Assembly: GCA_946699065.1 (NCBI GenBank)
Contig: CAMPDV010001539.1
Coordinates: 1-64,000 of the forward strand
Origin: Loxodes magnus
Taxonomy: Eukaryota; Ciliophora; Karyorelictea; Loxodida; Loxodidae
Length of the DNA stretch: 64,000 nt
Direction of reading: 5' to 3'
The position numbers and the translations under genes were made by a program. The notes under the pieces were generated by a model. That model was not told the DNA's origin. It saw only the letters and a program-made list of their open reading frames with translations, and ran no database searches. Positions 18,430-22,202 of this stretch are shown here, one piece after another (within the stretch, counting starts at the first letter, position 1; every line of letters starts with the position of its first letter).

Positions 18430-21400
18430 GTCTTAGAAAAGAGCTCCAGGGTTCACTTGCTTTTGTTCCTGCTCTTTCCTGAATAAAGGACTGCGTAGGA
18501 CTACATTAGTCCGCCATCCTTGTCTCTCCCTCATCCACTAATTATCGTTATAGTTTCTTCTTCCATTTTTATAAACATCGTTGTTTCTTGAGTTGTAGGA
18601 TTTCTTTCTGTATACTTATCCTGTTCTTGTTGGTCATATTCTGAAAAGTTAGTCTAATATTTATTACTTGTTAATTTTTTCAATTTCTTGTTTCTTCCAG
18701 CATTTTTTCCAGCAATTATTTTTCTAGCATAAATAGCACCGAATATTTTTGCGATAATACTTGATCTAATTTATTTTTTATTATTAGAATTCCGATTAGA
18801 TTTCCATTGTAATATTTGATTATTTATCTTATTAATCTTATTAATCTTATTAATCTTATTAATCTTATTAATCTTATTAATCTTATTAATCTTATTAATC
18901 TTATTAATATTATTAATCTTATTAATCTTATTAATCTTATTAATCTTATTAATATTATTAATCTTATTAATATTATTAATCTTATTAATCTTATTAATCT
19001 TATTAATATTATTAATCTTATTAATCTTATTAATCTTATTAATCTTATTAATCTTATTAATATTATTAATCTTATTAATCTTATTAATCTTATTAATCTT
19101 ATTAATCTTATTAATCTTATTAATCTTATTAATCTTATTAATATTATTAATATTATTAATCTTATTAATATTATTAATCTTATTAATCTTATTAATCTTA
19201 TTAATCTTATTAATCTTATTAATCTTATTAATCTTATTAATCTTATTAATATTATTAATCTTATTAATCTTATTAATCTTATTAATCTTATTAATCTTAT
19301 TAATCTTATTAATCTTATTAATCTTATTAATCTTATTAATCTTATTAATCTTATTAATCTTATTAATCTTATTAATCTTATTAATCTTATTAATCTTATT
19401 AATCTTATTAATCTTATTAATCTTATTAATCTTATTAATTTTATTAATTTTATTAATCTTATTAATCTTATTAATCTTATTAATCTTATTAATCTTATTA
19501 ATCTTATTAATCTTATTAATCTTATTAATCTTATTAATCTTATTAATCTTATTAATCTTATTAATCTTATTAATCTTATTAATCTTATTAATCTTATTAA
19601 TCTTATTAATCTTATTAATCTTATTAATCTTATTAATATTATTAATCTTATTAATCTTATTAATCTTATTAATATTATTAATCTTATTAATCTTATTAAT
19701 ATTATTAATCTTATTAATCTTATTAATCTTATTAATCTTATTAATCTTATTAATCTTATTAATCTTATTAATCTTATTAATCTTATTAATCTTATTAATC
19801 TTATTAATATTATTAATATTATTAATCTTATTAATCTTATTAATCTTATTAATCTTATTAATCTTATTAATCTTATTAATCTTATTAATATTATTAATCT
19901 TATTAATATTATTAATCTTATTAATATTATTAATCTTATTAATCTTATTAATCTTATTAATCTTATTAATCTTATTAATCTTATTAATCTTATTAATCTT
20001 ATTAATCTTATTAATCTTATTAATCTTATTAATCTTATTAATCTTATTAATATTATTAATCTTATTAATCTTATTAATCTTATTAATCTTATTAATCTTA
20101 TTAATCTTATTAATCTTATTAATCTTATTAATATTATTAATATTATTAATCTTATTAATATTATTAATCTTATTAATCTTATTAATCTTATTAATCTTAT
20201 TAATATTATTAATCTTATTAATCTTATTAATCTTATTAATCTTATTAATCTTATTAATCTTATTAATCTTATTAATCTTATTAATCTTATTAATCTTATT
20301 AATCTTATTAATCTTATTAATCTTATTAATCTTATTAATCTTATTAATCTTATTAATCTTATTAATCTTATTAATCTTATTAATCTTATTAATTTTATTA
20401 ATTTTATTAATCTTATTAATTTTATTAATCTTATTAATCTTATTAATCTTATTAATCTTATTAATCTTATTAATCTTATTAATCTTATTAATCTTATTAA
20501 TCTTATTAATATTATTAATATTATTAATCTTATTAATCTTATTAATCTTATTAATCTTATTAATCTTATTAATCTTATTAATCTTATTAATATTATTAAT
20601 CTTATTAATATTATTAATCTTATTAATATTATTAATCTTATTAATCTTATTAATCTTATTAATCTTATTAATCTTATTAATCTTATTAATCTTATTAATT
20701 TTATTAATCTTATTAATCTTATTAATCTTATTAATATTATTAATATTATTAATCTTATTAATATTATTAATCTTATTAATCTTATTAATCTTATTAATCT
20801 TATTAATCTTATTAATCTTATTAATCTTATTAATATTATTAATCTTATTAATCTTATTAATCTTATTAATCTTATTAATCTTATTAATCTTATTAATTTT
20901 ATTAATCTTATTAATCTTATTAATCTTATTAATCTTATTAATCTTATTAATCTTATTAATCTTATTAATCTTATTAATCTTATTAATCTTATTAATATTA
21001 TTAATCTTATTAATCTTATTAATCTTATTAATCTTATTAATCTTATTAATCTTATTAATCTTATTAATATTATTAATCTTATTAATCTTATTAATCTTAT
21101 TAATCTTATTAATCTTATTAATCTTATTAATTTTATTAATCTTATTAATCTTATTAATCTTATTAATCTTATTAATCTTATTAATCTTATTAATCTTATT
21201 AATATTATTAATCTTATTAATCTTATTAATCTTATTAATCTTATTAATCTTATTAATCTTATTAATCTTATTAATCTTATTAATCTTATTAATCTTATTA
21301 ATCTTATTAATCTTATTAATCTTATTAATCTTATTAATCTTATTAATCTTATTAATCTTATTAATTTTATTAATCTTATTAATCTTATTAATCTTATTAA

Positions 21401-22202
21401 TCTTATTAATCTTATTAATCTTATTAATCTTATTAATCTTATTAATCTTATTAATCTTATTAATCTTATTAATATTATTAATCTTATTAATCTTATTAAT
21501 CTTATTAATCTTATTAATCTTATTAATCTTATTAATCTTATTAATCTTATTAATCTTATTAATCTTATTAATCTTATTAATCTTATTAATCTTATTAATT
21601 TTATTAATCTTATTAATCTTATTAATCTTATTAATCTTATTAATCTTATTAATCTTATTAATCTTATTAATCTTATTAATCTTATTAATCTTATTAATAT
21701 TATTAATCTTATTAATCTTATTAATCTTATTAATCTTATTAATCTTATTAATCTTATTAATTTTATTAATCTTATTAATCTTATTAATCTTATTAATCTT
21801 ATTAATTTTATTAATCTTGTTTTTCTTAAAGTTGCTTTATTTTATATTTAATCTAAGAAAAATGAAATTGGAACATTTGAGGGACTTCGTTAAATTATTT
21901 ATCAATTTATTCCAATTTAATTATAATTTACGATTAGATTTTATTTAATGATTCATCTATGTATGGGAATTATAGGTTTAATTATTCCATTAATTTTTCT
22001 ATTAAGTTTTCTAAATTTTCTATTTTTTATCTTTGCTTTTTCAAGTCATATTGGATATTTGATATCCTTTGCTGAACTGATTATGCAAAGGATTCCTTAG
22101 ATTATTAATCTTTATCTTATTAAGGCTATTCTTCAATTAAATTAGGTTATTCTTATTTTTTCAAGTATTAGTTAATAGAGGTCTATTATTTCTTAGTGCC
22201 AT
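18430..22202 (-). CDS. Zinc-knuckle protein with a giant (D/Y/N)QQ repeat
   Basis: Read with UAR=Gln, the minus strand encodes an N-terminus resembling its neighbour (TKKQQTSINQYLKKQEQ), a coiled coil (QRQKIENLENLIEKLMEQL, then NKIQSQIIIKLEQIDKQFNE), and QLQEKQDQQ leading without a frame break into about 330 tripeptides (Asp/Tyr/Asn)-Gln-Gln. The frame then leaves the array as DKQSNITMEIQSEFQQQ and continues to a Cys cluster (CYLCQKNNCWKKC, knuckle-like) and a C-terminal block containing VYRKKSYNS and GWRTNVVLRSPL. The paralogue at 22345-23142 has the same order of parts without the array. The initial ATG GC- ACT AAG lacks one base relative to the paralogue's ATG GCT TCT AAG, so the start is out of frame unless there is a sequencing error. 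No TGA terminator is evident near 18430, so the end is approximate. A role in nucleic-acid binding or aggregation is inference. Confidence 0.6.
18829..21810. repeat. 3-kb tandem array of a 9-bp unit (CTTATTAAT)
   Basis: About 331 uninterrupted 9-bp units with no indels. By my count about 36 units carry A and about 12 carry T in place of the single C; no other position varies. On the minus strand in the flanking gene's frame the unit is GAT-TAA-TAA, and the two variants are TAT-TAA-TAA and AAT-TAA-TAA. Variant patterns recur within the array: the spacing Y-Y-D-Y starts at 19143, 20133 and 20736, and a doubled T variant lies at 19440/19449 and again at 20394/20403. All of these distances are multiples of 9. 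This indicates growth by segmental duplication or unequal exchange. The plus strand would read as Leu-Ile-Asn repeats, which I regard as the shadow. Confidence 0.95.

Follow-up and report, generated by a model that had tools for sequence, protein, structure and literature searches.

The 64-kb stretch of DNA analysed here (the window) carries on its minus strand two adjoining related genes, A and B, and gene A holds an array of 333 nine-base units that runs from 21816 to 18820, with all 333 units in phase and without a single insertion or deletion when parsed from 21816. Tandem Repeats Finder places the array at 18820..21818 (period 9, 333.2 copies, 97% matches, 0% indels), which agrees with a preliminary description of the locus as an indel-free 9-bp array of about 3 kb. 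There are 284 units of GATTAATAA, 36 of TATTAATAA, 12 of AATTAATAA and a single boundary unit, GATAAATAA, which is the last of the array and is followed by unique sequence. Among the 332 units other than the boundary unit, eight of the nine positions are invariant, and all variation falls on the only G:C pair of the unit. The array is 2,997 bp long, has an A+T content of about 91%, and reads as (Asp/Tyr/Asn)-Gln-Gln on the minus strand if UAA is Gln (18820..21816; hereafter the DQQ frame), giving 999 residues made up of 665 Q, 285 D, 36 Y, 12 N and one K. The earlier description of the array, with UAA in two codons out of three, is right (665 of 999 codons are TAA). Since all six reading frames are open across the array, the openness of the DQQ frame is not evidence that it is coding. 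No second array of the GATTAATAA-type unit was found by Tandem Repeats Finder elsewhere in the window, and a 54-base pattern of the array had no match in a genome-contig collection. A viral contig (L001:4567-4630) encodes a short (Ile-Asn-Lys)n linker with the same 9-bp unit in a 253-residue protein; as a short linker in another protein, it is taken to be unrelated to the array.

The genetic code was read from a NACHT/WD40 gene on the minus strand (40302..45448) with the help of Pfam and codon counts. Under code 27, positions 45448-40302 form one frame of 1715 residues with 13 WD40 stretches and a NACHT-like domain that falls slightly under the Pfam cut-off. The tryptophans of the WD40 motif I-[KNR]-[ILV]-W are encoded by TGA in eight of 13 cases and by TGG in five, the whole frame has 12 TGA and 17 TGG, and gene B has TGA where gene A has TGG for the W of the Cys cluster that they share. 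These counts show that UGA is Trp within genes of the window. UAA and UAG are sense codons as well, as the NACHT/WD40 frame contains 89 of them and 32 CAA/CAG, in line with the preliminary description, which had read stop codons as sense. Because UGA is also read as Trp, a host with the Tetrahymena/Paramecium-type code 6 is rejected. The choice between Gln and Glu rests on other grounds, as the homology scores in the window are nearly alike. The NACHT domain scores 24.4 bits when UAA/UAG are read as Gln, 23.4 as Glu, 23.0 as Lys, 22.9 as Leu, 22.8 as Ser and 20.3 as Tyr; the best solved-structure match of the WD40 piece scores 434.2 bits with Gln and 440.9 with Glu, the other matches being mixed, and the NACHT piece matches no solved structure under either reading. 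In the aligned WD40 repeats and the A/B alignment, UAA and UAG face mixed residues, and CAA or CAG stands at none of the listed places. We chose Gln because known ciliates that combine UGA=Trp with sense UAA/UAG decode the latter as Gln, as described in work that includes a study of Loxodes magnus (PMC11441545). The earlier assignment of UAA to Gln therefore stands as to sense, and as to the residue it is plausible by analogy with known ciliate codes.

The same study also reports that in Loxodes magnus UGA is the only stop codon and also encodes Trp, that the modal intron is 17 bp long (15-16 bp in heterotrichs), and that coding sequence has a G+C content of 33.5% and 3'-UTRs (untranslated regions) one of 18.6% (PMC11441545). 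In the window, G+C is 32% in the NACHT/WD40 gene and 23% overall when the array is left aside. The code, a predicted 17-bp intron in gene B and the base composition are consistent with a karyorelict ciliate such as Loxodes, most likely the kind of host, whose nuclear code (NCBI table 27) has UGA as its only stop, placed near the mRNA end. A heterotrich such as Condylostoma is less likely in view of the intron lengths of 15-16 bp published for that group, a comparison with a single predicted intron. All three stop codons are translated too in Amoebophrya sp. ex Karlodinium veneficum, a host that we disfavour.

Paralog B (22406..23142, minus strand; candidate stop TGA 22408-22406), delimited by frame analysis and homology to A, adjoins gene A directly upstream on the same strand. 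It starts with MASKKQQ..., continues with a coiled-coil-like segment and a Q/N-rich linker, and reaches a Cys cluster, CYVCNKQHQWKYC (22639-22601), with no array in between; its in-frame TGAs at 23034 and 22612 are read as Trp. The frame of B breaks once ahead of the Cys cluster, and the break is mended by a 17-bp GT-AG stretch at 22942-22926, the only one among GT-AG stretches of 15-26 bp that begins within the first 270 bases. As its removal restores the frame and its length equals the published mode for Loxodes magnus, this stretch is a predicted intron (22926..22942, minus strand). Gene A has the plan of B plus the array in the linker. Its N-terminal part (21817..22202, minus strand), delimited by frame analysis and a DNA match to B, consists of the start region and of a Q-rich, coiled-coil-like segment that is in the DQQ frame and enters the array without a TGA; its C-terminal domain (18634..18819, minus strand), delimited by the frame join and homology to B, contains the Cys cluster CYLCQKNNCWKKC (18738-18700) and runs to TGA 18636-18634. 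The coiled-coil-like stretch before the array and the Cys cluster after it share one frame with DQQ.

The relationship between A and B is clearest after the array. Of the 115 residues of the C-terminal piece of A, 94 can be aligned with B and 35 are identical (BLASTP E 3e-23 with composition adjustment off; phmmer 4.2e-16), and the local score is 190, whereas 1000 shuffles never exceed 73 and the other two frames of B give 44 and 47. Over 56 ungapped codons, A and B differ at 19, 17 and 33 sites of codon positions 1, 2 and 3, with pS 0.68 and pN 0.35, and the BLOSUM total is 172 in the DQQ frame, while none of the other five frames exceeds 101, all three being comparisons without a significance test. 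Given this homology and the distribution of differences among codon positions, the region after the array has evolved as protein in the DQQ frame, and the minus strand is the gene strand, as had been proposed. At the start of the genes the match is one of DNA: only two of 1000 resampled sequences equal it in a wide window, and none of 1000 in a narrow window picked around the start.

Beyond this pair, relatives were sought without success. No third copy of A or B occurs in the window at E 0.1, and among 5.8 billion proteins, supposedly mostly predicted by other means and under other codes, no relative was found at E 0.1 for B (140 candidates scored) or for the A/B C-terminal alignment (six scored). 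Against solved structures, this alignment gave two chance-level matches (E 0.16 and 0.29), and an AlphaFold2 model from the two-sequence alignment is uninterpretable (mean pLDDT 49). The pieces of A and B have no Pfam match at cut-off; YlxR at the C-terminus of A (E 0.0098) and 13 weak coil-type matches at the N-terminus of A lie below it. A CCHC zinc knuckle has the spacing C-X2-C-X4-H-X4-C, which neither gene shows (C-X2-C-X4-C-X3-C in A, C-X2-C-X3-H-X4-C in B), and no zinc-knuckle family is among the Pfam matches of the A and B pieces up to E 1.

Both ends of gene A are irregular. The ATG at 22202-22200, which matches the start of B, is off the DQQ frame by one base, because gene A is one base shorter than B just past the start codon, and its own frame meets a TGA after 13 codons. 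The first ATG in the DQQ frame, at 21990-21988, opens a frame of 1118 residues up to the first in-frame TGA; the proposed product of more than 1,200 residues is obtained only from stop to stop (1229 residues). TGA 18636-18634 may not end the gene, since UGA is also a sense codon here: it aligns with a Tyr codon (TAT) in B, UAA occupies three of the preceding ten codons, and the next TGA in the frame of A lies at 18004. In Loxodes magnus, UAA is depleted ahead of true stops (PMC11441545). If TGA 18636 is Trp, a possible read-through extension would cover 18430..18633 (minus strand). The end of B is similarly ambiguous: the frames of A and B disagree from the Cys-cluster domain to a hairpin described below (22330-22500, minus strand), and a second possible stop, TGA 22347, lies in another frame and is preceded by more than 20 codons without UAA, UAG or UGA. 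As the ancestral start lies one base off the frame and a clean stop is lacking, the view that gene A is made as a giant protein is not upheld.

The order of the D, N and Y units within the array is not random, as variants recur every 26 units (234 bp). At lags of 26, 52, 78 and 104 units, 34 variants are shared against a shuffle mean of 13.4, a value that none of 2000 shuffles attained; if period 26 is treated as the best pick among 55 periods, one of 2000 shuffles reaches the observed sharing. A block of 30 units with five variants is present twice, 78 units apart, and no such pair arose in 2000 shuffles, block length and variant number having been set post hoc. This stricter test, which demands at least five variants, superseded a simple longest-repeat shuffle that was noisy (one of 200 shuffles hit 38, against 30 observed). 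Variants that recur over several units are a mark of satellites, and the array, as traced by Tandem Repeats Finder, the unit parse and variant periodicity, contains them as a 26-unit higher-order repeat: it grew satellite-style, through block copying. Variants that are common by descent represent few independent mutations, which limits any argument about selection drawn from them. All 48 variant units are nonsynonymous in the DQQ frame (D to Y or N), so that the variant pattern is rejected as evidence of purifying selection in this frame. Furthermore, every Gln place in the array is TAA (665 of 665), as compared with 53 of 84 in the flanks and paralog B. Together, these two features look like a young homogenised repeat and not like a tract under protein selection. 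The restriction of variation to the only G:C pair of the unit is most simply explained by GC-to-AT mutation combined with homogenisation.

We suggest, as the probable reading, that the array is an in-frame coding satellite whose growth was neutral and took place in the linker of a paralog in decay. Gene A would be a tandem paralog of gene B in a genome whose three stop codons are all sense within genes, and its ancestral plan, judged from B and solid for the C-terminal part, would have been a coiled coil, a Q/N-rich linker and a Cys-cluster domain. A DQQ-coding seed, GATTAATAA, in this linker would have expanded, probably by slippage, and because the unit is 9 bp long the frame would be kept at any copy number. 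Thereafter the array enlarged as satellites do, some 26 units (234 bp) being copied at a time, as the period-26 sharing of variants shows, while the confinement of variation to the G:C pair would reflect GC-to-AT mutation and homogenisation instead of protein selection. Gene A is most likely decaying or already silent, as it has one base fewer than B just past the start codon, and the giant polypeptide would be unmade or a by-product from the downstream ATG. In short, the locus looks more like unchecked growth of a repeat in a gene copy that is probably damaged than like a proven giant protein. The preliminary description had the array, its strand and the C-terminal join right, and it overlooked UGA=Trp, paralog B and the 26-unit repeat.

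Several observations weigh against this reading. The one-base offset at the start could be an assembly error, and a copy long dead would not be sure to keep its C-terminal frame in register with B over 94 residues after the array, as A does. There is no change at any of the A:T positions of the array (8 x 332 = 2,656 sites), more constancy than mutation bias predicts unless the array is very young; a young age is therefore needed. The DNA match between A and B in the C-terminal stretch is modest (four of 1000 resampled sequences). At the N-terminus, protein similarity to B does not exceed what composition yields (166 of 1000 shuffles reach the score), so that, of the in-frame join claimed earlier for both sides, the C-terminal side is the one backed by protein homology to B.

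It would be tempting to take gene A as intact and expressed, its product being an acidic Gln-rich scaffold of more than 1,100 residues between the coiled coil and the Cys-cluster domain, which may bind nucleic acid, with the start offset due to an assembly error or translation beginning at ATG 21990. The conservation of the C-terminal domain as protein in the joined frame, the conserved start region, 2,997 bp of array without an indel and an N-terminal frame that reaches the array without TGA all favor this idea. However, the open frame is automatic and the variants are only nonsynonymous, the start codon is one base off, there is no in-frame TGA between 18636 and 18004, and the three UAA in the ten codons before TGA 18636 are at odds with the avoidance of UAA there in Loxodes magnus (PMC11441545); we regard an intact gene A as unlikely. 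That the array is translated into a polyanionic (Asp-Gln-Gln)n of about 1,000 residues, a length-variable acidic scaffold between the same two domains, seems doubtful to a slightly greater degree. Such a product could hardly be called prion-like, as had been suggested, since prion-like proteins combine a Q/N-rich tract with few charged residues: there are 285 Asp in the 999 residues, and the calculated charge of the 1118-residue frame read with Gln is about -276 at pH 7. Alternatively, the array might act in chromatin or in the nucleus, either as AT-rich satellite DNA or as a repeat RNA, and not as protein, its location in a gene being incidental. The satellite-like higher-order repeat and the high A+T content fit this idea, and low-complexity tandem repeats make up about one-third of the Loxodes magnus macronuclear (MAC) assembly (PMC11441545). 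It is nonetheless improbable, as the sequences at the two ends match pieces of a single gene and the frame is preserved, so that the array arose inside a gene, and Tandem Repeats Finder shows no other array of the GATTAATAA-type unit in the window.

The combination of coiled coil and Cys cluster resembles retrotransposon ORF1- or Gag-like proteins, and A and B might be such proteins, with the array expanded in a mobile element. In non-LTR retrotransposons, ORF1 is linked to a reverse transcriptase or endonuclease and the copies are interspersed. This possibility is compatible with an in-frame satellite in a decaying paralog, and LINE-related repeats are abundant in Loxodes magnus (PMC11441545). 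The predicted intron of B speaks against RNA-mediated copying, however, only two tandem copies occur in the window, and the A and B pieces match no Pfam family at cut-off, reverse transcriptase not having been searched for around 18-24 kb; we do not expect this origin to be the right one, though it deserves mention. Trypanosomatid genomes differ from genomes with ciliate-like low G+C and short introns, and this bears on a reading of UAA/UAG as Glu (the Blastocrithidia-type code), in which the tract would be (Asp/Tyr/Asn)-Glu-Glu, a nearly pure polyacid. The homology scores given above would allow it (NACHT slightly better with Gln, the best WD40 match slightly better with Glu), and a trypanosomatid in which UAR is Glu and UGA is Trp has been described. 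Yet the 23% G+C outside the array and the predicted 17-bp intron point to a ciliate, and known ciliates in which UGA is Trp and UAA/UAG are sense decode the latter as Gln, as noted above, so that Glu is very improbable. Finally, the plus strand offers an open Leu-Leu-Ile frame in which all three unit types read LLI and the 48 variants are all synonymous (ATC, ATA and ATT being Ile). This synonymy follows from the coincidence of the variable G:C pair with the third position of the Ile codon, while the homology of the flanks and the codon-position signal sit on the minus strand, and a wholly hydrophobic protein of a thousand residues is implausible; we give plus-strand coding next to no credence.

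Downstream of the Cys cluster, both genes carry a 27-base element that folds into a hairpin, the loop being of AAUG type and the bulge consisting of the three bases UAC; the copy of A (18493..18519, minus strand) lies within the possible read-through extension, and that of B is at 22396..22422 (minus strand). The copies differ at five bases: four belong to two pairs with compensatory changes (C-G to U-A, G-C to C-G), and the fifth lies in the loop; at least two compensated pairs arise from five random changes in 0.12% of trials, for a structure picked after seeing the sequences. A protein reading of the same stretch (GWxTNxVL) is possible too. Seen in two copies, the hairpin is a lead toward a possible conserved RNA element, and its pattern had no match in a viral-contig collection. 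Elsewhere, the window contains a U6 spliceosomal RNA gene (28958-29064, minus strand; Rfam RF00026, 95.2 bits) and, downstream of the NACHT/WD40 gene, 25-27-bp tandem arrays (37450-39389) partly nested in a 412-bp repeat. There is also an 8-9 kb tandem duplication (46234-54519 and 55459-64000, about 97.5% identity), parts of which are related to 4500-5429 and 7399-11086 at 83-93%; six-frame Pfam searches of 46234-53695 found no domain at E 0.01.

The nearest database proteins to the DQQ tract are 12 weak matches to bacterial Asp/Gln-rich low-complexity tails (best E 4.5e-6), obtained with a 400-residue query among the best 7999 candidates by common words, of 0.55-1.75 times the query length. 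The three inspected (P0001, P0005 and P0010) have DQQ-like runs, as does the array, but these are imperfect, span about 60-170 residues and have no related flanks; the matches are rejected on the basis of these three. Among the open-access literature matches listed (main texts without supplements), none describes a protein of the (DQQ)n type of comparable length. If the array is translated, we know of no natural use of reassigned stop codons that is denser, and with 665 UAA codons per message it would be an extreme natural test of UAA decoding against termination.

In ciliates with stop codons reassigned to Gln, Gln use is raised and polyQ or Gln-rich flexible tracts are more common, according to the available part of PMC10942620. 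The array shares with these Q-rich motifs a Gln richness that arises through UAA/UAG=Gln. However, the polyQ and Q/N tracts in that part of the study are spread over the proteome, while the array forms a single acidic tract, 999 codons long without a break, in one copy of a gene. Of the 706 Mbp of the MAC assembly of Loxodes magnus, low-complexity tandem repeats occupy 231 Mbp (PMC11441545), and the window is compatible with that species in code, in the length of its one predicted intron and in the contrast between coding and non-coding composition; the array differs from those repeats at large in lying within an identifiable gene.

The closest parallel might be coding minisatellites, whose units are divisible by three, lie within a reading frame and expand without breaking it. 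The array likewise has an in-frame unit divisible by three and frame-safe growth, and it sits inside a coding region whose frame is kept, as judged from protein homology at the C-terminus and DNA homology in the start region. It is unlike them in having 333 near-perfect units, in that two-thirds of its codons are standard stops, all of them TAA, and in its block-wise higher-order structure. In a code that allows each of the three stop codons to be sense, a repeat within a gene can grow without meeting a stop in any frame; coding and non-coding satellites then become hard to separate, and standard annotation would miss such an array. If its product is not made, the array of gene A would show in clean form how a satellite with a higher-order repeat grows within a copy of a gene.

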